IMG/VR virus record: IMGVR_UViG_3300033148_001743
Coordinates: 1-34,475 of that record
Source of the DNA: a virus
DNA: 34,475 bases
Reading direction: 5' to 3' (one strand)
Shown: positions 1 to 34,475 of the stretch, piece after piece
Numbering within the stretch: the stretch's first letter is position 1
How the letters are laid out: each line of letters starts with the position of its first letter
Translations under genes and position numbers: made by a program
Notes under the pieces: model-generated
Database searches by the model: none
What the model was told of the DNA's origin: nothing
What the model saw: only the letters and a program-made list of their open reading frames with translations

Positions 1-114
1 AATGTAAATCGACTTGCAGTAGTGACCGCCAACGTCCGCGACTGTGTCCTTGATATTCTTGTACAAACCTTTAGCGATTGCACCTCCTTTGAATGACTTA
101 ACCGTCAGGACTTC
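1..114. repeat. 114-bp terminal direct repeat, left copy (circular overlap)
   Basis: Bases 1-114 are identical to the last 114 bases of the window (34362-34475). The repeat lies inside a coding region that is complete only when the two copies are merged. It is therefore best read as the overlap of a circular assembly of a circularly permuted or circular molecule, giving a unique length of 34,361 bp. A true fixed terminal repeat would split the SSB-like gene and is less likely. Confidence 0.9.
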
Positions 115-345
115 TTTGGAAAGGTCTTCGACTTCGTTCGACCAGATACCTGATTCGCTATCGTCGTGCCAACCTTTGACTGTGTGACGCTCCATGAGTA
201 CCACAAACTTTAACGGCAACGCAATGAGAACGTTCTCCTCTGCGTCGTGGTCGTAGTATCTGAATTGCTGGTCGTCGCTTGCCCATTCTAAATAGCGAGC
301 CGCTGGGCGCTCAAAGCTCTTGTTAAATTCGTCTGCTCTTGACAT
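1..345 (-). CDS. SSB-like protein, N-terminal part (gene spans the joined ends)
   Basis: This is the first 115 codons of a 237-aa protein. The frame runs from an ATG at 343-345 to base 1 and continues in register at 34361 down to a stop at 33993. The N-terminal part has an aromatic-rich globular sequence (YLEW near residue 18, then RYYDHD, WHDD and IWSNEV) followed by a basic, glycine-containing patch (VKSFKGGAIAKGLYKNIK), compatible with nucleic-acid binding. It follows the 122-aa early gene by a 27-nt gap. See the 33993-34475 entry for the tail and the function argument. The family assignment is inference; the joined reading frame is directly seen. Confidence 0.75.
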   Translation of the reverse strand, partial: MSRADEFNKSFERPAARYLEWASDDQQFRYYDHDAEENVLIALPLKFVVLMERHTVKGWHDDSESGIWSNEVEDLSKEVLTVKSFKGGAIAKGLYKNIKDTVADVGGHYCKSIYI

Positions 346-9111: not shown

Positions 9112-9702
9112 ATGAATGCACCTACTCTGGAGCAAATTAAGAGCGTTATGCTTTCCGCTGGAATGAAAGTATTTACCAACCCTTACGACATGACGCTCGG
9201 CGGGATCAGAACCAAGGACAATAAATCGAATACGTTTAACGATTTTTTGTTCATGATGTATCACGACGCGAACGGTAATTTTTGCGGCGTAGTCGCATCG
9301 GGAACGACCGACGCTGGGCTTTACTATCGTAAGCACCCCATGCAACTCGACGGAACTGCTATTATTCAGCACGGCGTACAGCATCGAGGCGCATATACGT
9401 ACATGGAGAAAGGAGGTCATCGAGGACAGGAGGCTTTTAGACAGACGGGCAATATGAAGTACTGGCGAGACGCTGATCGCGATTCTTATCTCGATTTCGA
9501 CGGGATCGAGCAGACAGCTCTATTCAATACGAACGGTCACGACATGGGAACGGTCGGCAAAGTTGTCGGTAAATGGTCGGCGGGTTGCTGGGGGGCTGTC
9601 AATTCGACAATGGACTCGCTCTATGATCTGGCGAAAGCGCAAATTGACGCGGGTCACGGAAAGAAATTCTCGTTCGCTATGCTTCACGAATCAATGTTTT
9701 AA
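9112..9702 (+). CDS. Probable endolysin, L,D-transpeptidase-like Cys/His motif (196 aa)
   Basis: The protein has the pattern of a family of cell-wall-active proteins found in Bacteroidota phages: a beta-rich core (GTTDAGLYYRKHPM, GTAIIQHG), the YWRD-x-DRD-x-x-LDFD segment (residues 117-130), then N-G-H143 followed by K-W-S156-A-G-C159. The H...SAGC arrangement resembles the catalytic H...(S)xGC of YkuD L,D-transpeptidases, suggesting a cysteine enzyme acting on peptidoglycan cross-links. It has no signal peptide, so a holin would be needed for release. It is the first late gene and is directly followed, 4 nt later, by the spanin candidate, which supports a lysis role. The exact bond cleaved is not known. 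Confidence 0.7.
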   Translation: MNAPTLEQIKSVMLSAGMKVFTNPYDMTLGGIRTKDNKSNTFNDFLFMMYHDANGNFCGVVASGTTDAGLYYRKHPMQLDGTAIIQHGVQHRGAYTYMEKGGHRGQEAFRQTGNMKYWRDADRDSYLDFDGIEQTALFNTNGHDMGTVGKVVGKWSAGCWGAVNSTMDSLYDLAKAQIDAGHGKKFSFAMLHESMF

Positions 9703-9706
9703 AGCC

Positions 9707-10330
9707 ATGAGACTCAGACACTTAAACAGGCTATTTGCGCTACTTCTAAGCTCGCTAATTCTGGCGAGCTGTGGAGTGGTCGAGAACGGAACTAAGTACG
9801 AGAGGGGTGAGCGAGCGTCTTCTGAGACTGTTTTCAAAAAGGAGAAATCGGTCGATTCGCTGGGGCTGATCTTGCCGACTGATTCGATTCGGCTCTGGTC
9901 TTCTCTGGACAGCACGATCCTGACCCCAGAACCTGACCAAACAGCACCCGACACGCTCACCAATAGAGAGAAACGGCAGCAGCGACAGGACGCTAACAAA
10001 CGCAAGAGAACGTCTCGCAGAGATAAGCGCAAGAAGGATCGCCGCAATTACGTACTGATCAAACAAGACAGGAAATACACTGCAAGGAATGACCGTAAAA
10101 GGACAAAACTGAGCGGACGGACGGACAAGGAACGAGTCAAACAGGACGGAAAGACGACCCGTAAAAAGGTGAAACAAAGCGGACGGACGGACAGATCAAA
10201 AGAGAAGACAACGCGAAGGGGTAAGCGTAGAAAATTACCCCCAGCGGTTTGGTGGTTCTTATTCTTTTTGATTACATTCGCAATAACTGCTGTTTTTGGC
10301 AGGAAATTATACATCAAATATTTTAAATAA
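9707..10330 (+). CDS. Candidate unimolecular spanin (lipoprotein plus C-terminal TM, 207 aa)
   Basis: The start at 9707 (MRLRHLNRLF) gives a textbook lipoprotein signal peptide with lipobox L19-A-S-C22. The C-terminus has one hydrophobic helix at about residues 179-198 (VWWFLFFLITFAITAVFG) followed by a basic tail. A lipid anchor at one end and an inner-membrane helix at the other is the topology of u-spanins such as phage T1 gp11, which fuse inner and outer membranes in the last step of lysis. It is adjacent to the endolysin. It is odd in that the middle (about 85-175) is extremely Lys/Arg-rich with repeated S-G-R-T-D-[KR] units, longer than T1 gp11. An upstream in-frame start at 9563 would overlap the endolysin and lose the signal peptide, so it is rejected. 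Confidence 0.65.
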   Translation: MRLRHLNRLFALLLSSLILASCGVVENGTKYERGERASSETVFKKEKSVDSLGLILPTDSIRLWSSLDSTILTPEPDQTAPDTLTNREKRQQRQDANKRKRTSRRDKRKKDRRNYVLIKQDRKYTARNDRKRTKLSGRTDKERVKQDGKTTRKKVKQSGRTDRSKEKTTRRGKRRKLPPAVWWFLFFLITFAITAVFGRKLYIKYFK

Positions 10331-22029: not shown

Positions 22030-22365
22030 ATGAATGAAATCTATCTAGCAGCTATCGGTCTGATCTCAGGCGGTGGGATTCTTAAATTGATACAAGGAGT
22101 CTCGAAGTCAAAGAGAGCTAACAAAGCTCAGGACAGAGACGACTACAAAGATTATATCTCAATGCTCAAGGACGATCTGAAACTCAGAGACGAGAAGATC
22201 GACGGACTGGTTGAGAAGATCGAGGAAATGTTTGAGCGTATGCTGGAAATGAACGGCAAGATCGCCAAGCAGTCTGGGATTATTACTGGACTAGACAATC
22301 AGATCGGGGAGCTTACGACAGAAGTTCACCAATTACGGAGCGAGAACGAAGAGCTGAAAGGGTGA
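22030..22365 (+). CDS. Membrane-anchored coiled-coil protein (111 aa)
   Basis: Residues 4-22 (IYLAAIGLISGGGILKLIQG) form one small-residue-rich hydrophobic helix. The rest is an uninterrupted charged coiled coil (about 32-110) with heptad-like spacing (LKDDLKLRDEKIDGLVEKI). The topology resembles small Bacteroidota phage proteins sometimes named holin-like, or an i-spanin-like rod. It is too far from the lysis genes to say which. The stop overlaps a GTG-started gene. Confidence 0.65.
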   Translation: MNEIYLAAIGLISGGGILKLIQGVSKSKRANKAQDRDDYKDYISMLKDDLKLRDEKIDGLVEKIEEMFERMLEMNGKIAKQSGIITGLDNQIGELTTEVHQLRSENEELKG

Positions 22366-22824: not shown

Positions 22825-25800
22825 TGGCTGAGGAGGTAGAAATCAATGCAACCCTAAACCCCGAAGGAACGGTCAAGGGGTTGCTGGAGATCGAGGAGAG
22901 TACAGTCAAAGCCGCGAAGAAAGTCTCCAAGCTCACGGACGAGTACGAAGACCTGAACCAGCAGCTCAAGAAGCTGGACACTGGCGCGGACGAATGGGAG
23001 GACTTATACAAAGAAGTTACCAAAGCGGAGAAAGCTCTCAACAAAGCGAACAAGGAGCTGGACGAGACCACGCAATCAGCGAATGCAGCGACTGGTTCTA
23101 TCTCAGGCATGCAGCAAACCCTCGCTTCACTAGAGGCGGAAATATCTGGAGTAGCTGTCGGATCAAAAGAGTTCGACGCACTGTCGGCTAAGATCAGAAA
23201 GGTCGACGGAGAGCTGACGACAGCGACTGAATCTCTTAACGGTCTGTCCTCAGAGGACAAAGCGAGCAGGGTCGGTCAACTTGCTGGAGGTCTCGGGAAC
23301 GTGGCAGCTAGTGCCGCGCTGATTGGTGGCGAGGAGTCTGCTATTGGTGAGTTCTTCGGAGGGCTTGAAGGGGCTATCGGAATAATGGTCGGAGTTCAGG
23401 GAGCTATCGAGGCGGTGGCTGCAACCAAAAAGCTTTTAGGTCTTGCTGCTGCTCAGAACGCGGTGGCTGTAGCTGGAGAAACTGCTGCAATGGGTGCTAG
23501 TACTGTAGCAACTGGAGCGCAAGCTGTAGCAACTGGAGCGGCGACAACCTCAATGTGGGCTTTGAACGCTTCATTGTTGGCGAATCCTATCTTCTGGATC
23601 GTTGCTGTGATCATGGCTGTGATAGCCGCGTTCGCATTGTTCAGTGCTTCAACGAAAACGGCTGGAGCAGAGCATGCGAAACTCAACAAGGAACTGGAAC
23701 GGGAAGGCGAGCTAATTGAATCGAACCGAAAGGCGAGAGAGCGAGCGAATAGTGAACTGCTGAACGAGATCGCGAACAAGGAGAAATTGATCCAAGCAGA
23801 GAGAGACTTACTCGCTGCGAATGAGTCAAGAACGAAGGCTCAAGAGGAGCAGCTCAAAACTCTGAACAAACAGCTCGGAGAAATTGACGAGCAATCCCTT
23901 GATATAATGGGAGAGGAGACTCGAAAGCAAATCGCTGAGAATTCCAAACTCATGCACGGTCAAGTCAAAGCTGCTCAGGTGGGACTTACTGCTGTATGGG
24001 ACGAGGACTGGGGGTCACCTGATTTTGACTTCGGCTCTGTCCGTACTTACTTCTCAGATGTTGACGCTTTACAGGGTAAAGCTGCTCGATTGTACAACAA
24101 AGCAAACGAAGCCACAACCGAAGCCGAGAGAGACGAGTATATCAAGCGAGCTAACGCAGTAGAAACGCAAGTAACCAAAAGCACCGCCAGAATTCAGGCG
24201 AAGCTTGTCAAGATAAAAGGAGAACTCGGGGGCGATGCTTCTGAGGAAATGGAAAAGGTGATCGAAAACATTGCCAAGTTCGGAGAACGAGCTGACGAGT
24301 CGGCTGGGCTAATCAGTGAATATCAGAAAGCTATTGATAATTTCAATACTGACGGTATGGTCGGCGAACTCGAAGACGAGGCGGCGGCTCAAGAGGAGGC
24401 GAACAGAAAGCGAGAGGAGGCAATTGATCAATGGAAGGACTTTATCGCTTCTCAGCGAGAGCTAAGAGAGGAGCTGTCCGTTGCTCGAATGTCAGATCAA
24501 GAACGAGAGCTTCATGAGCTGGACTTGTGGAACAAGGAGCGGCAAGCACTCGTCAAGAATGACGCTGACCTAGCTGCTGAGCTTGCTGAGGAGCTGGAAA
24601 AAAGAAAGATAGAGATCAGTGACAAGTACAAAGATATTGAGACGGAGAAAGAACAGGCTCGCGCCGCTGGACTTTTAGAGATTGAGAGACAGCTCGCAGA
24701 CAATAGAGCCTTGATCGCGTCAATGAGAATTTCTGCCGCTGCTGCAATGGCAGAGGAGGAGGTTAACGCCCAGCTCGAAGCATGGCAGAAGGGACTCGAA
24801 GAAAGTCAAGCGATCAGTGATCAGGAACTTTCCAATTTAAAGGCATCGTTAGCAGCGAGGAGAGACACAATCCTTGCAGCTATAGATCAGGAATCTACCG
24901 ACCGTAAAAGTGCAGCAGAACGCGCGAGAATAGACGAGATCGCAGCAGCTACCGAGAAGATCGCAGCTCTGCAAGAGTCAGGTCTCGCCGAAGCTGAGGC
25001 AATGACCCAGCTCGCTGAGCTTAAAAAGTCCATATTAGCAAAATACAACGCCGAGGTCGCTGACGCTGACGAGGCTGCTGCACTTGAAAAGAGAGCGGCT
25101 CAGAAAGAATACAACGACGCAGAGCTTCAAGCTGAGCAAGAGCAAAAGGATAAGCTCGTAGCTATCAATCAAGCGCACACTGATAAGATTCTTGGCAGCT
25201 TGGACACCATATCACAAGCTCTGAACGAATCTGTCGGCGAGTTCGAGGGTGCGCTCGGAACTCTGGCGAGTGCTGTCTCCTCAGGGATCAGTCAGCTAGG
25301 TAGTTCTATTCAAGGTCTGAGCGAGAAGCTCAAGGAGATCAAGGAGAAAACGAAAGACGGAGCGCAACTGTCACCTGAGGAGGTTCAGGAAATGAAAGAG
25401 AACACGGCGGCGGCTGTCTCTGCAATTGTTGGAGCGGCTGGAGCTGTAGCTCAAGGAATCGTTCAGGCTATTGCTGAGAACAATGCAGCGAAAGCGGAGG
25501 AGCGCATTGCTATAGTTGAGGAGAACGCAGCAGCGGAGAACGCGATCATTGATCGAAATCTGGCTTCTGGTCTTATTAGTCAGGAGGCTGCTGACAAGCA
25601 ACGCAACGCTTTACAATTCAAAGCTGAGAAGGCTAAATTCGACATTCAAAAGAAAGCGTTCGATCAAGACAAGAAAGCGAAGATAGCAGCCGCTGCGATC
25701 AGCGGTCTGACTGGAGCTGTATCGGCGTTTGCTGGAGCGATGTCACTAGGTCCGATTGCAGGTCCGATTGTTGGCGGGATTCTTGCCGCTGCTGTCGGGA

Positions 25801-26094: not shown

Positions 26095-26742
26095 ATGAAA
26101 ACATTTAACGGGAAACCATTATACGACATTGTCGTTGACGCGAAGAGTAAACAATCAGGGACGAATCGAATTGATTTCGTAAGCAAGCCAGCGAACAAGA
26201 TGCCGATGCTTAAATTCTCAGAAGAGGACATCAAAACGAAGCTCGCTTTTAACGAAGAACGCCGACTTGTTACCGCTGTAATTATGCAGCCAGATTTCCC
26301 AATGAAACGAACTGTTAACGGCGAGGTGATTTACGTTCAATTTTCCGCTGAGACTATTGAATTCATGAGAGATAAATTCATGATGCTCGAAAAGCTACAT
26401 GAAAGAGGAACTCAGCACGAAGAGGAACTCGAACCGATGGACGCTCCACTTGTTGAAACGTGGATCACTGACGAGTCTCGCGGTATCTCCGCACCTGAGA
26501 AGTTAGAGACTGGAGACAGGAGCTGGCTGGGTACATTTAGAATACTGAATGACGAAGTCTGGGCGAGTGTTAAAGATGGAACTTTTGAGGGCGTATCTCT
26601 TGAGGGAATCTTTGATCTGTACGAAAGTTTCAGTGAGGTTTCTCCTAATATCGACAAAGGCTTGTTTAACATATTTAAAAACGCTATATTAAATAGTGAT
26701 ACCTCTACAGTGGAAATATTCAACACGCTGAAACGTCTGTGA
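26095..26742 (+). CDS. Prohead maturation protease, XkdF-like (215 aa)
   Basis: The protein follows the XkdF / Peptidase_S78_2 pattern: an N-terminal 'DIVVDAKSKQSGTNRIDFVSKPA' region, an 'AVIMQPDFPMKR' strand, a helix with H102 and H108, and 'SWLGTFRILNDEVWASVK' leading to F-E-G-V-S168-L-E-G, where Ser168 is the likely nucleophile. It would cleave scaffold and capsid N-termini in procapsids. It starts the head module, 4 nt after the tape measure stop, and its stop overlaps the following GTG start (GTGA). Confidence 0.8.
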   Translation: MKTFNGKPLYDIVVDAKSKQSGTNRIDFVSKPANKMPMLKFSEEDIKTKLAFNEERRLVTAVIMQPDFPMKRTVNGEVIYVQFSAETIEFMRDKFMMLEKLHERGTQHEEELEPMDAPLVETWITDESRGISAPEKLETGDRSWLGTFRILNDEVWASVKDGTFEGVSLEGIFDLYESFSEVSPNIDKGLFNIFKNAILNSDTSTVEIFNTLKRL

Positions 26743-27935
26743 AAGTTGTTTATTCCGAAGCTGAAAAGCGCGCCACCTTAGAGACCTTGAAATCGAAGGG
26801 TTCAAAACGACCCCCAAATTGGAAACTCATTCACAGCGAATCATGTGACGAGAACGAGCTTAGGTTCGATCACGGAAAACTGATAAAACGACTGTCGAAT
26901 AAATTCCGTTTAGGGAGCAACGATCTAAAATTCGCTGTTTCAGTTGTTAGTAATCCTAACGAAACAAGTTCTCTGGATCGGGGCGTAATTAAGATAAGGT
27001 ATCGCTATGTACTGAGTGCAGCTCATAGAGGTGAATCTTTGATCAAGTCAAACTCGCGTGAATTTTGCGTGACGCTGGTTGCTCATAACAAACTCTATAG
27101 GCTCGAAGACATTAACATGATGTCGTTCAGGGGCGCGAATCCTATCAGTTCACAGAACTATAGTATTTTCAAACTCCGAGGACATTGGAATTGTCGTCAT
27201 ACATGGCAAAGAGAAGTTTATCTCGTGGAGCGGGATAACAAAAATGTTGAGAACAACGAATTAATTAACAAAACTCTCGAAATGAAAGAGGACAAAAAAG
27301 GTTTAGTAGCCCAGTTCAAAGTGTTGCTAAGCAAAAAAGAGAAGCCATTGACACAAGCTGAGGCTGTTGAGTTGTCAAAAGAGCTTGTAAAGAACACAGT
27401 ACAAACATTCAAGGACGTCAAGGTTGACGACGCAGTAATGCGCGTTGAAGGTGACGAGCTGGTCGCTGGTGCAACGGTTGCATGGGCTGACAAAGACGGC
27501 GAACTAACTGCTGTCGAGAATGGTGAGTACACTGTTAAGGAGGACAAGGTCATTCTTGTCGTTGAGAACTCTATGATCTCAGAGGTTAAGCCTTTGGACG
27601 GTGAGGAGACTGACGAGGACAAGAAGAAAGCAGCCGCTAAAGCCGAAGAGGAGAAACTTGCAGCAGAGAAGAAAGCGAAAGACGAGAAGTCTGGAGAGTT
27701 CAACGCTGAGGAAAGTATCAAAGAAATCAATGCTCGTATTGAACAAATGCAAAGCAATTTCAAAGCGGAGACTGAGGCTCAAATCACTGAGTTAGGAAAG
27801 ACTATGACAGCTTCATTTTCAGAAGCGTTGAAGAACGTTCCAGCTTTCAACAGTGAGAACACAAGTCAAAACTTTTCAAGCAGCGAAAACAACAAGGACA
27901 ACAAGTACAGTCACCTGAGTGTAACGGGTAACTAA
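26739..27935 (+). CDS. MuF-like head morphogenesis protein fused to scaffold (398 aa)
   Basis: Residues 20-165 carry a motif set like the C-terminal part of Mu gpF-type proteins in Bacteroidota phages: N-S-R-E-F-C110, N-K-L-Y-R-x-E-D-I-x-x-M, and a late G-x-W-N-C152-R-H154-x-W, a possible zinc or structural site. From residue 182 the protein turns into a scaffold: a short beta domain 'V-E-G-D-E-L-V-A-G-A-x-V' plus 'G-E-Y-T-V-K-E-D-K-V', an acidic/lysine-rich helix (290-350) and a polar tail. An in-frame ATG at 27282 after an A/T-rich stretch would yield the scaffold alone. It starts at GTG, coupled to the protease. Confidence 0.65.
   Translation: MKVVYSEAEKRATLETLKSKGSKRPPNWKLIHSESCDENELRFDHGKLIKRLSNKFRLGSNDLKFAVSVVSNPNETSSLDRGVIKIRYRYVLSAAHRGESLIKSNSREFCVTLVAHNKLYRLEDINMMSFRGANPISSQNYSIFKLRGHWNCRHTWQREVYLVERDNKNVENNELINKTLEMKEDKKGLVAQFKVLLSKKEKPLTQAEAVELSKELVKNTVQTFKDVKVDDAVMRVEGDELVAGATVAWADKDGELTAVENGEYTVKEDKVILVVENSMISEVKPLDGEETDEDKKKAAAKAEEEKLAAEKKAKDEKSGEFNAEESIKEINARIEQMQSNFKAETEAQITELGKTMTASFSEALKNVPAFNSENTSQNFSSSENNKDNKYSHLSVTGN
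27282..27935 (+). CDS. Nested scaffold protein from internal start (217 aa)
   Basis: The in-frame ATG (codon 182 of the 398-aa gene) follows 'TTAATTAACAAAACTCTCGAA', an A-rich region like those in front of most genes here. The product would begin MKEDKKGLVAQF and hold the complete scaffold-like domain and coiled coil but not the MuF-like part. A nested scaffold gene is known from lambda (Nu3 within C) and related phages. Its use here is inferred. Confidence 0.4.
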   Translation: MKEDKKGLVAQFKVLLSKKEKPLTQAEAVELSKELVKNTVQTFKDVKVDDAVMRVEGDELVAGATVAWADKDGELTAVENGEYTVKEDKVILVVENSMISEVKPLDGEETDEDKKKAAAKAEEEKLAAEKKAKDEKSGEFNAEESIKEINARIEQMQSNFKAETEAQITELGKTMTASFSEALKNVPAFNSENTSQNFSSSENNKDNKYSHLSVTGN

Positions 27936-29542: not shown

Positions 29543-29904
29543 TGCTGAGAGTTAAACTAGGAGTTAATATCTTATACGCCACGCTTTCCGAAAGGGAGGT
29601 CGTGGCGTCTCCTGTTTACGAAATGGTGATCACACCAATCGAAGCAAAGACCAACGCGAAGACTCTCGTCCCAACCGATCTCTCAGTCGCTGGTAAAAGA
29701 GTAAATGAAATAGAGATCGAACTTGTAGCGACCGTCAATACAGAGGACTTGCCAAACGGTAAAGTATTCCTTACTGGGGGCGATTACCACTACAAAATAT
29801 CAGATCAAAACAACACATTAGAGACTGGAGTTCTCCGATACGATACCGAGATCGACCAGTCTGAGTACAGCAACAGTATCACTGAAAAGGTTTACAATGG
29901 ATAA
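29542..29904 (+). CDS. Virion-associated protein of unknown function (120 aa)
   Basis: I chose the ATG at 29542, which overlaps the previous stop, rather than an upstream in-frame start at 29467 that lies inside that gene. The protein is beta-rich (VASPVYEMVITPIEAKTN, INEIEIELVATVN, GGDYHYKISDQ) and may be a small immunoglobulin-like or decoration fold. Its stop overlaps the portal start by 8 nt. The function is unknown; head or tail accessory by position. Confidence 0.65.
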   Translation: MLRVKLGVNILYATLSEREVVASPVYEMVITPIEAKTNAKTLVPTDLSVAGKRVNEIEIELVATVNTEDLPNGKVFLTGGDYHYKISDQNNTLETGVLRYDTEIDQSEYSNSITEKVYNG

Positions 29905-31297
29905 CAAAGACGAAACGAAAGTACAGAAAGGTTTGCAAGTGGATTTCGCGCAAATGAATAGCGTTCCAGATATTCACTCTCCGCAATTCAAAGAAGATAA
30001 GAAAGCTCAGATTGTGAAGTACGGAAAGGACAATCTGTACCCTGACTTTCTTCTTGATCTATTCATAAACAAATCAAGCAAGCACCGATCTATCATTGAA
30101 AAGAAAGTGAGCATGATCGCGGGGCAAGGTTTTGACTACGACAAGACAGAGGACGAAGCTCGTCAGTTCTGGGCGAACGAGAAAGGCTCTCACAACCTTG
30201 ACGATCTCGGAACTCTTGCAGCTACCGATTACGAAATATTCTTTTACTTCGCTTTGATCATTCGCTGGGATTCAACCAAGACGAAGATCGCAGCTATTGA
30301 TTACATGCCAGCTCACAAAGTCCGTAAAGGATTGAAACCGAAAACGTGGTGGGTCTCGGACAACTGGAAACACTACAAAAAGCCAGAGTCGCAAACGCGT
30401 CAGTATATGGAGCTGGACGAGAAACCTCTCCCTGAGGGCTTCGCTGAAATGAAACAAGCAGACAAGCGTTTGCACTTGACTCAGATCGTTATATTCAAGA
30501 ACTTGACTGTAGGTTCTGACGCTTACCCTCACGTCCCATACCAGCCAGCTATTCACTATCTACTGGCAGACTATCAGATCGGAAAGTTCACGCTCAATAA
30601 CGTGAAGAACAACTACGTCGGAGGCTATCACATTGACTTTGTCGGTGAGATTCCAGAAGCTCCAGAGAGAGCGGAGACGAAGCAAGCCTTTCTGACTGAG
30701 TACACGAACAGCGAAAGCTCGAACGTCGTATTTACTTGGACAGAACCTGACTCACCAAGAGGAACGACCTTGACTCCCTTGCCGACCAATGGATCAGAGG
30801 ACGCCTTTCTCAATGTCGATAGGTCTGTCCTTGACAATATCTTCGTAGCTCACTCAGTTACGTCGCCAATGCTGTTCGGAATTCGAGAGGCTGGTTCTCT
30901 TGGAGGCAAGCAAGAGCTGGAGGAGTCTCTTGGTATATTCCAAGCGACCGACATTTCGCCAAAGCAAGGCAAGATCGAAGGGGTGTTCAATGGCTTGGCG
31001 AAGATCAACGAGATCAGAACTATATACAAGCTCTTGAAGTACATGATCGAAGAGGAGCAAGTCGATACTGAGGACGCGAACTCGTTCAACTCATTATCGC
31101 CGCTAGTAGCTACTAAGATACTGGACAACTTGACAGTGAATGAGATTCGTTCTCTAGGTGGTCAGCCTCCAGTTGAAGGAGGAGACGAATTCATTCCTAA
31201 GGACAGAGAGAAATTCGGCTTCTCTGATCAGGAAACTATAACGAGAATAATAAAGCTCTCAGGAGTTAAGTTCACAATGAAAGAATTAGCAGCATGA
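29897..31297 (+). CDS. Portal protein (466 aa)
   Basis: The sequence 'YGKDNLYPDFLLDLFINKSSKHRSIIEKK' (residues 40-68) matches the N-terminal wing of portal proteins of Bacteroidota phages. 'SVTSPMLFGIREAGSLGGKQELEESLGIFQ' (about 320-350) matches the conserved 'V-x-P-x-L-x-G-x-x-x-x-G-x-x-G' clip/stem region, followed by a long helix. A dodecameric ring at one capsid vertex is expected. It is unusual in lying downstream of the capsid gene. Its stop overlaps the next start (ATGA). Confidence 0.88.
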   Translation: MDNKDETKVQKGLQVDFAQMNSVPDIHSPQFKEDKKAQIVKYGKDNLYPDFLLDLFINKSSKHRSIIEKKVSMIAGQGFDYDKTEDEARQFWANEKGSHNLDDLGTLAATDYEIFFYFALIIRWDSTKTKIAAIDYMPAHKVRKGLKPKTWWVSDNWKHYKKPESQTRQYMELDEKPLPEGFAEMKQADKRLHLTQIVIFKNLTVGSDAYPHVPYQPAIHYLLADYQIGKFTLNNVKNNYVGGYHIDFVGEIPEAPERAETKQAFLTEYTNSESSNVVFTWTEPDSPRGTTLTPLPTNGSEDAFLNVDRSVLDNIFVAHSVTSPMLFGIREAGSLGGKQELEESLGIFQATDISPKQGKIEGVFNGLAKINEIRTIYKLLKYMIEEEQVDTEDANSFNSLSPLVATKILDNLTVNEIRSLGGQPPVEGGDEFIPKDREKFGFSDQETITRIIKLSGVKFTMKELAA

Positions 31298-32494: not shown

Positions 32495-32692
32495 CTATTT
32501 CTCGACAGGGTCAAGGCTCACTTCTGACTCCAGAACCTTGCAGACTTTTCTCAACTCGGAGAACTGCATTGTCTCTCTGTTGATTCTCTTGTTTAGATTC
32601 GATCTATCCGTCCCCAGCTTGTCAGCGAGTTGTCGCTGTGACATTCCTTTCGCTTTGAGCTGGTCGTCCAGTATCTTGCTGAGGCTTTCCAT
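32495..32692 (-). CDS. XRE/Cro-CI-type transcription regulator (65 aa)
   Basis: A minimal helix-turn-helix protein. Residues 17-38 (M-S-Q-R-Q-L-A-D-K-L-G-T-D-R-S-N-L) are the classic XRE HTH, followed by 'I-N-R-E-T-M-Q-F-S-E-L-R-K-V-C-K-V-L'. There is no dimerisation or cleavage domain, so it is Cro-like in size. It is the last gene of the leftward operon, overlapping the exonuclease stop by one base. It is the only recognisable DNA-binding regulator in the genome and therefore a candidate to bind the operators at 8754-9054 or 7778-7793; that link is inference. Confidence 0.85.
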   Translation of the reverse strand: MESLSKILDDQLKAKGMSQRQLADKLGTDRSNLNKRINRETMQFSELRKVCKVLESEVSLDPVEK

Positions 32693-33687
32693 TAAGTGAG
32701 TGACTTTAAATGAGCCAAGTGTTCAACGTTCCTGTTCTTCCAGATTTCGTCCAGTGTACCGTAATGGATTCTCGCGAGCTTCACAGCATCCTTGATCGCT
32801 TCTTTGTCCGCTTCTGTCACATCTACTCGGAAAATCTTTAAACGATCCTCTAAGGGCAGCTTTTCAAAGTTGAAATAATCCCTCACCTCTTCGTAGAACT
32901 TCTCAGGAATCTCCTCAAACCAGTCGCGCCCGTTCTCTTTCCAGAGCTTCTTGACTTCGATCTCCAGCAAATCAGCAGGGAGGTTCTGGAGTATCTTCAC
33001 AACGTAGCCCGTCTCAAATCCTAGCATCCAGTTATATCCTTTCCCTTGCCAATCATAGATTGGATCAAGCGGTTTGCTGATCATGAGTCCGTCAGGATAG
33101 TATAAGTTCTTGATGTCGAACTGAAAGCCAGAGCCGAACCCGAGCCTCTTGATCGCGTCAGGAGTTCCCTGAATGTATTCGTTGTCATAGTGCTGCTCGT
33201 TCTTGATCACGTCCTCCAGTCCTAACAGATCAGAGACGACCTTGATCGCCTTGTCTTCCATTGAGTGACCCTTCTGGATGAACTTCGAGCTGAGTCCTTT
33301 ACGAAACGAGAACTTGTCCTCGACGTAAATCTCCTCGACTGCTGTCTTCGCTCCCTTCGAGAGAGCTGGTTCTGCGTCTCGCTTCTTAATCAGCTTGATT
33401 CGAGTCTCCTCTTGCTTGGCTGATAGCTCAGGTTTCTTGTCGCGCTTCGCGATCAGTCCGTCGAGCTTCTTGATCTGAGCTTCGGTCGCTGTTCCCTCGT
33501 CTTTCTTCTTGCTGATCTTGTTCAGCTCCTCCTCCTGATTCATTGTGAGGTTCGACCACGTCGTTGCGTTCTTCGTCTCCTCAAGAGACTCCAAGTCTTT
33601 CAGTTGAGTCTCTGTGATCTGAGTCTCTGGGTCAAAGGTCATGATTCGCCCCAGTGCTGAGCATCTGATTTTGATTTCTTCTGCCAT
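32692..33687 (-). CDS. YqaJ/lambda-exonuclease-type recombination nuclease (331 aa)
   Basis: A PD-(D/E)xK exonuclease: E144 (HSMEDKAIKV), D177 in G-T-P-D, D191-I-K193 in place of the usual E-x-K, and Q214 in W-Q-G-K-G-Y. It would resect dsDNA ends to 3' overhangs for single-strand annealing. The N-terminal 110 residues contain about four imperfect helical repeats ('Q-x-x-x-L-x-x-L-x-x-K-R-D-x-x-P-x-L-S') before the catalytic domain. The ATG at 33687 is preferred; an upstream start at 33747 overlaps the lipoprotein gene by 56 nt and adds unlikely residues. Its annealing partner is not obvious. Confidence 0.85.
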   Translation of the reverse strand: MAEEIKIRCSALGRIMTFDPETQITETQLKDLESLEETKNATTWSNLTMNQEEELNKISKKKDEGTATEAQIKKLDGLIAKRDKKPELSAKQEETRIKLIKKRDAEPALSKGAKTAVEEIYVEDKFSFRKGLSSKFIQKGHSMEDKAIKVVSDLLGLEDVIKNEQHYDNEYIQGTPDAIKRLGFGSGFQFDIKNLYYPDGLMISKPLDPIYDWQGKGYNWMLGFETGYVVKILQNLPADLLEIEVKKLWKENGRDWFEEIPEKFYEEVRDYFNFEKLPLEDRLKIFRVDVTEADKEAIKDAVKLARIHYGTLDEIWKNRNVEHLAHLKSLT

Positions 33688-33691
33688 AGTA

Positions 33692-33937
33692 TTACTTCTT
33701 AAATTTCGACTGAGCATTGTCCAGTCTCTTTTGATTCTCGATCTCATTCAAGCGGAGATCGTTCGCTCTTTCTCTGGTTTTCCTCTCGGCTTCGATTCGC
33801 GCCTCGTCCCGTTTCAGCTCCTCGTTGAGCTGATCTCTCTTGTCCGCCGCCTTGCTACTGCAAGAAGTGCTGATCATCGCTGGGAGGACAGCAAGAGCCG
33901 TCGCAATGATCCAAGCTGTTAAGTGTTTCTTTAACAT
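33692..33937 (-). CDS. Small lipoprotein resembling a tape measure segment (81 aa)
   Basis: The N-terminus has a basic start and a hydrophobic stretch (residues 7-24, TAWIIATALAVLPAMIST) leading to C26 in S-T-S-C-S-S-K, a relaxed lipobox acceptable in Bacteroidota. The remainder is a single coiled coil. Residues 37-75 match tape measure residues 287-325 at 21 of 39 positions without gaps, including R-K-x-R-E-R-A-N and L-N-E-I-x-N, and in both proteins this follows a hydrophobic helix and a short Ser/Lys linker. It lies in the early operon between a terminator and the exonuclease gene. A superinfection-exclusion decoy is the favoured idea; a spanin-like or chance coiled-coil origin is possible. 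Confidence 0.7.
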   Translation of the reverse strand: MLKKHLTAWIIATALAVLPAMISTSCSSKAADKRDQLNEELKRDEARIEAERKTRERANDLRLNEIENQKRLDNAQSKFKK

Positions 33938-33948
33938 ATTGTTGAATT

Positions 33949-33976
33949 AAAAACGGGGAGAGCAGAACCCTCCCCG
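33949..33976 (-). terminator. Rho-independent terminator between SSB-like and lipoprotein genes
   Basis: On the minus strand a 7-bp perfect stem CGGGGAG/CTCCCCG (33970-33976 with 33954-33960), a 9-nt loop, then TTTTT (33949-33953). It lies just before the lipoprotein start with no new promoter visible, so it would lower rather than abolish expression of lipoprotein, exonuclease and regulator. Confidence 0.7.
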
Positions 33977-33992
33977 AGTCATTGGGTTAATA

Positions 33993-34475
33993 CTAAAAGT
34001 TAACGACCTCCTCACTAGGCATATCGAAATCAACCTCCTCGGCGTCAAGCTCTGAGTCTTCTACGTCTTCGGTCGACTTGTTCTCAGCGTCATTCGCTAA
34101 CGATTGCGCTCTTGCTGATAGGTTCTCAATCAGCTCGTCGTAACAAGCGTCTGCTTTCTTCGCGACTGGTGCTTTGATCTTGCCTTTGAACTCAAAGACT
34201 GGGACAGAATACTCGACTTTCCCTTTCTTCTTTTCTTCGACAGAGGTCACGGCAACCAGCTCACCGATCAATCGCTTGCGATCCTTCTTGATGAACTCTC
34301 CCCAAGCGAATACAGCCGACCCTTTGATTGAGATATTCCATATCTCACCGTCGTCGTTCATAATGTAAATCGACTTGCAGTAGTGACCGCCAACGTCCGC
34401 GACTGTGTCCTTGATATTCTTGTACAAACCTTTAGCGATTGCACCTCCTTTGAATGACTTAACCGTCAGGACTTC
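33993..34475 (-). CDS. SSB-like protein, C-terminal part (continues at base 345 side)
   Basis: The full protein (237 aa when the ends are joined) has a beta-rich core (KSIYIMNDDGEIWNISIKGSAVFAWGEF) and a linker, and ends in an acidic tail with a C-terminal Phe (D-V-E-D-S-E-L-D-A-E-E-V-D-F-D-M-P, last residues V-V-N-F). An acidic tail ending in Phe is typical of single-strand binding proteins (E. coli SSB, T7 gp2.5), where it docks partner proteins. It lies upstream of the exonuclease, so it could also act as the missing annealing protein. An in-frame ATG at 34427 gives a shorter frame but the joined version starting at 345 is preferred. Confidence 0.65.
   Translation of the reverse strand, partial: EVLTVKSFKGGAIAKGLYKNIKDTVADVGGHYCKSIYIMNDDGEIWNISIKGSAVFAWGEFIKKDRKRLIGELVAVTSVEEKKKGKVEYSVPVFEFKGKIKAPVAKKADACYDELIENLSARAQSLANDAENKSTEDVEDSELDAEEVDFDMPSEEVVNF
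34362..34475. repeat. 114-bp terminal direct repeat, right copy
   Basis: Identical to bases 1-114. Merging the copies gives a circular map with an uninterrupted leftward operon. Confidence 0.9.

Follow-up and report, generated by a model that had tools for sequence, protein, structure and literature searches.

The predicted lipoprotein LpA, encoded in the replication/recombination region of the phage genome analysed here, carries a helix that resembles the first helix behind the membrane segment of the tape measure protein (TMP) of the same phage, the tail protein by which DNA is carried through the cell envelope. The earlier note had read this as mimicry of a TMP segment, and the present analysis supports that reading: the similarity is far above chance and specific to this TMP lineage, it is kept in a second phage species, the helix is placed at the same distance from the membrane anchor, and it has been retained at the protein level despite saturated synonymous sites. 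Since LpA is an early-block lipoprotein of a probably lytic phage and resembles the membrane-side helix of the DNA-carrying TMP, an exclusion factor is the best explanation. LpA may act as a decoy or poison subunit that excludes related phages by poisoning an incoming TMP or competing with it, a reading that we prefer tentatively and would stop short of calling probable.

The window, i.e. the whole stretch of 34,475 nucleotides that was analysed, has 114 identical bases at its two ends (1-114 and 34362-34475), and the gene at 345..1 runs on into 34475..33993 across this terminal repeat. The identical ends and the early gene reading through the join indicate that the contig is a complete phage genome, with about 34.36 kb of unique sequence. 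Matches of the terminase and of other proteins point to a siphophage of Bacteroidota, and the phage is probably lytic since no integrase was found among the window ORFs scanned against PHROGs. The features on which the argument is built are compiled in Table 1. Two genes upstream of the TMP, a small protein (22030-22365, plus strand) combines an N-terminal hydrophobic helix with a coiled coil and has weak holin-like and chemotaxis PHROG matches. A 398-aa protein (26739-27935, plus strand) matches the C-terminal part of the portal family phrog_33693 with its residues 40-184; the portal itself is encoded at 29897-31297, and the 398-aa protein looks like a separately encoded portal-associated domain.

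Table 1. Positions in the window of LpA, its counterpart in the TMP and the neighbouring features.
Feature	Position	Strand	Basis
LpA, 81-aa predicted lipoprotein	33692..33937	-	Translation; AlphaFold helix; syntenic ortholog LpB with invariant T-S-C and helix motif
LpA codons 39-73, TMP-like helix core	33719..33823	-	Alignments and pairwise scores
TMP residues 258-326, TM helix and first post-membrane helix, counterpart of LpA	23595..23801	+	BLASTP, hhalign
Tape measure protein (TMP), 1088 aa	22824..26090	+	Weak PHROG tail length tape measure matches; relative's TMP 63-67 % identical; low-confidence all-helical model
Exonuclease, immediately downstream of LpA, start inferred near 33687	32692..33687	-	phrog_5715 exonuclease, 1.3e-24; 68 % identical in phage B
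Early gene upstream of LpA, C-terminal part, phrog_6706 (no assigned function)	33993..34475	-	PHROG match; continues into 345..1
Leader hairpin just before the LpA start codon, 10-bp stem, T-run, terminator-like	33954..33976	-	Hairpin at the corresponding place in phage B, without T-run

LpA consists of a predicted signal peptide (residues 1-25), the putative lipidation site Cys26 and a charged helix covering about residues 31-80. The signal peptide, MLKKHLTAWIIATALAVLPAMISTSC, is of the typical lipoprotein type, and judged by eye both LpA and its ortholog LpB from the second phage have an n-region with KK, a hydrophobic core and ISTSC/IATSC with an invariant Cys. By this signal peptide, LpA is a small phage-encoded envelope protein that is predicted to be lipidated and to reside in the periplasm. 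AlphaFold models residues 26-80 as one long helix, with pLDDT values of 87-96 over most of residues 31-80. No significant match to Pfam, PHROG, NCBIfam or PADLOC was obtained for LpA, and its weak matches were to T7 gp14-like and internal virion proteins (E 0.015-0.05). The gene is located on the minus strand between the early gene of phrog_6706 and the recombination exonuclease of phrog_5715, within the replication/recombination block and outside the lysis cassette, and from this position only we infer early expression. The hairpin before the start codon may attenuate or set the expression of the lipoprotein; in the second phage, a stable hairpin without a T-run is found at the same place before LpB (L008 about 976-1007). 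In both phages, a small helix-turn-helix regulator is encoded directly after the exonuclease (window 32495-32692, minus strand; L008 2122-2328).

The ungapped match reported in the earlier note, in which LpA 37-75 and TMP 287-325 share 21 of 39 residues, was reproduced. BLASTP aligned LpA 9-76 with TMP 258-326 at 31 of 69 identical residues and one gap (53 bits, E 6e-14 as a single comparison), and the profile-profile comparison that had been proposed as a check recovered the same segment with an hhalign probability of 95 % and an E-value of 2e-8. The Smith-Waterman score of LpA against the TMP was 135, compared with maxima of 73 in shuffles and 71 in heptad-register shuffles. Mature LpA, from which the signal peptide was removed, reached 100, with maxima of 62 in shuffles and 79 in heptad-register shuffles. 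Among the 581 frames of the window, the TMP was the top non-self ORF of LpA, and the next one scored 51. As decoys, 13 other Bacteroidota TMPs together with other and reversed parts of both TMPs scored 34-64 against the lipoprotein, and the TMPs of HK97, TP-J34, P12002L and Arctus_1 scored 31-53. The best match among all PDB chains had 13 bits, and a lipoprotein profile searched against about 395 Bacteroidota genomes gave a best match of 19.8 bits, compared with the 39.4 and 31.8 bits that LpA reached with phmmer on its own TMP and on that of the second phage.

A second phage species (phage B) is represented by the contigs 3300029267_000513 and 3300017989_000588/_000609 from two metagenome samples. 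Its proteins are 63-67 % (TMP; 63 % over its length), 74-75 % (terminase) and 68 % (exonuclease, over aligned columns) identical to those of the window phage, and the same gene order includes the syntenic ortholog LpB, which has 70 aa and is 50 % identical to LpA. Aligned without reference to LpA, LpB has its best site in its own 1,091-residue TMP at residues 251-321, which is the same segment, with a score of 80 (shuffle maximum 69, decoy maximum 57). For mature LpB the margin is small, with a score of 72 against maxima of 64 in shuffles and 69 in heptad shuffles, and against TmpA it scored 68 with a heptad-shuffle maximum of 74. LpA, LpB and both TMPs all carry the motif L-x6-IE-x2-RK-x-RER-x-N-x4-N. 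The motif Ile lies 22 residues behind the lipidated Cys in LpA and LpB, and in the TMP it follows the end of the membrane helix by about 23 residues, so that the motif would be displayed at about the same height above the membrane. Scans of viral contigs for the lipoprotein, TMP, terminase and exonuclease recovered no contigs other than those of phage B and a single distant one, found with the exonuclease, that lacks the lipoprotein; scans of genome contigs returned nothing beyond generic TMP membrane helices, and in phage and plasmid collections neither the TMP nor the lipoprotein had a significant match.

The claim that LpA copies the whole architecture of the TMP segment stands for the helix and its spacing. 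The likeness of the signal peptide to the TMP membrane helix is weak in phage B, which lacks the W-I-x-A match, and for this reason only the helix and the spacing are well supported. The description of the shared segment as a coiled coil could not be established: charged residues make up most of the match, few a/d positions are hydrophobic, and LpA is predicted by AlphaFold to form one long helix. The structure model of the TMP is poor, with pLDDT values of 24-45 around the segment, which is too low for a fold comparison.

Between LpA and the TMP helix, pN is 0.30 and pS is 0.72 with saturated synonymous sites, and the 21 identical residues use the same codon at 9 positions compared with 8.0 expected. 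Because the synonymous sites are saturated and codon sharing does not exceed expectation, the resemblance is old and held at the protein level; a recent duplication or gene conversion is unsupported, given the saturated codons. The values for LpA and LpB (pN/pS 0.38/0.65, synonymous sites saturated) are consistent with a selected gene. In several Bacteroidota prophage TMPs, the NPI membrane segment is followed by a helix with the sequence ..LLKSRIETNRQQREL.. or a similar one, and an IExNRxxRE-like helix is found at the same post-membrane place in related prophage TMPs (G393, G599, G601). This suggests that the TMP form is older and that the lipoprotein is probably a derivative of the TMP helix, a direction of copying that we infer from these relatives. 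The sequence DALHETAxE..LLKxxIExNRxxRE is common to several Bacteroidota prophage TMPs (L035-L051, L062-L081) after an ANPxF membrane helix, a hint that the TMPs of Bacteroidota phages have a conserved post-membrane helix.

Signs of co-variation between the lipoprotein and the TMP are mixed in the two lineages covered. Within the 35-residue core, LpA is identical to its TMP at 19 positions and to LpB at 20 (hand count from alignments), and LpB is identical to its own TMP helix at 12 of 35 positions and fits TmpA equally well. The two TMPs differ at nine sites of this core, where LpA sides with its own TMP 4:0 and LpB with its own 1:3, as counted by hand in these two lineages only. With phmmer, LpA reached 39.4 bits on its own TMP and 31.8 bits on the TMP of phage B, and LpB reached 16.9 bits on its own and 16.7 bits on the other TMP, again for two lineages only.

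In the proposed mechanism, LpA would be made in infected cells as a decoy or poison subunit and would display its copy of the post-TM helix of the TMP on the periplasmic side of the membrane. Once the TMP of a related phage is ejected into the envelope, LpA would pair with the homologous TMP helices or, alternatively, would occupy the partner that those helices must bind. The DNA channel would then fail and superinfection by kin would be excluded. Co-assembly as a coiled coil is one option for this step and competition for a common partner is the other; as the conserved residues are mostly polar and form no coiled-coil core, binding of a third partner suits the data at least as well as direct co-assembly. 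More generally, this could be exclusion by self-mimicry, in which a membrane-displayed copy of the phage's own DNA-entry machine shields the infected cell and rivals are recognised through the self-similarity of their tape measures. We regard this concept as quite possible, still short of likely.

The mainly polar or charged character of the conserved residues also speaks for another explanation, in which LpA helps the phage by sharing a binding partner with the TMP helix, either a host envelope protein or a phage protein, and has its role in takeover, lysis timing or assembly and not in exclusion. LpB not tracking its own TMP would fit this, and siphophage TMPs engage inner-membrane proteins, for example lambda and ManYZ (PMC13190303). 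However, no partner is known, and competing for a partner of the TMP would itself tend to exclude superinfecting kin; we consider this explanation unlikely, while deserving of consideration. More doubtful is an exapted helix, i.e. a TMP fragment that was fused long ago to a signal peptide and has since taken on an unrelated role in the replication/recombination operon, for instance keeping an early protein close to the membrane. The position of the gene between an early gene without assigned function and the exonuclease in both phages and the lack of clear co-variation with the TMP in the two lineages are in line with it, but the signal peptide and lipobox point to the membrane side opposite to that of the replication proteins, and all four sequences have kept the TMP-specific motif.

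Convergence of unrelated charged helices, with neither common origin nor common function, is very improbable. Both helices are rich in Glu, Arg and Lys, and the bare core IE-x2-RK-x-RER, scanned as a DNA pattern, matches in about 8 % of Bacteroidota genomes (an uninformative scan). Nevertheless, the scores are far above those of shuffled, heptad-preserving and real-TMP decoys, nothing comparable was found in genomes or the PDB, and the same TMP segment was picked out again in phage B. The similarity is thus better than that between unrelated charged coiled coils, which the earlier note had named as the comparison that could overturn its claim, and a chance match of charged helices was rejected by the same controls. 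Least credible of all is an identity of LpA as the outer-membrane subunit of a spanin. A small lipoprotein with a helix has the general shape of Rz1-type or unimolecular spanins, but the gene is located in the replication block, far from the lysis genes, and LpA has no C-terminal TM. In both phages, a candidate unimolecular spanin with a lipobox and a C-terminal TM follows the endolysin, which makes a lysis role of LpA unlikely, and the spanin identity is not supported on these grounds. This candidate (window about 9680-10330, plus strand; L002 1463-2128) has a long Lys/Arg-rich middle with short repeats, and no convincing family match was found for it.

Exclusion by LpA would have precedents in membrane proteins that act on TMP-dependent DNA entry, namely Ltp, HK97 gp15 and SNIPE. 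Ltp of Streptococcus phage TP-J34 is, like LpA, a small phage lipoprotein, and it targets the TMP of the incoming phage, as stated where PMC3952083 cites Bebeacua et al. 2013. Two repeat domains, expression from the lysogeny module and a charge-based action on the C-terminus of the TMP set Ltp apart from LpA. In Pfam and NCBIfam, LpA had no match to the Ltp repeat domain, and by its sequence it is outside the Ltp family. The superinfection-exclusion protein gp15 of HK97, which according to work cited in PMC10883804 is escaped by HK97 hybrids with the tail-tube and TMP genes of HK022, is close to LpA in build: both have about 60-80 aa (gp15 62 aa), one hydrophobic anchor and one charged helix. 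In contrast to LpA, gp15 is transmembrane and not lipidated, and it is a moron encoded beside the TMP. Neither Ltp (z 0.2) nor gp15 (z 1.9) resembles its own TMP, and a self-copy would therefore be a different means to exclusion; as a mode of exclusion, mimicry has no known precedent. SNIPE is a bacterial membrane-anchored nuclease that contacts siphovirus TMPs during DNA entry, and in some members of its family the N-terminal region shows homology to a phage envelope-penetration protein (PMC13190303); LpA, by comparison, is phage-encoded and without a nuclease domain. SieA of P22 is a phage membrane protein that blocks DNA entry through the ejection proteins (PMC10883804) and differs from LpA in that it is located in the inner membrane and acts on a podovirus, with no TMP involved.

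Exclusion by self-mimicry was not described in the open-licence literature searched. No second example of a mimic was found among 13 prophage TMP neighbourhoods, some of them truncated, or in four reference phages; both scans were small and used simple start and lipobox rules that can miss cases, and the reference-phage scan missed LpB itself due to an upstream Met.

If the proposal is true, it suggests a simple genome-wide search for small envelope proteins that resemble the TMP of their own phage, which may reveal further exclusion factors. The specificity of exclusion could then be readable from sequence, given that the blocker duplicates its target. The proposal would also single out a short post-membrane TMP helix as important for the entry of DNA in siphophages of Bacteroidota, a step that is still poorly understood.
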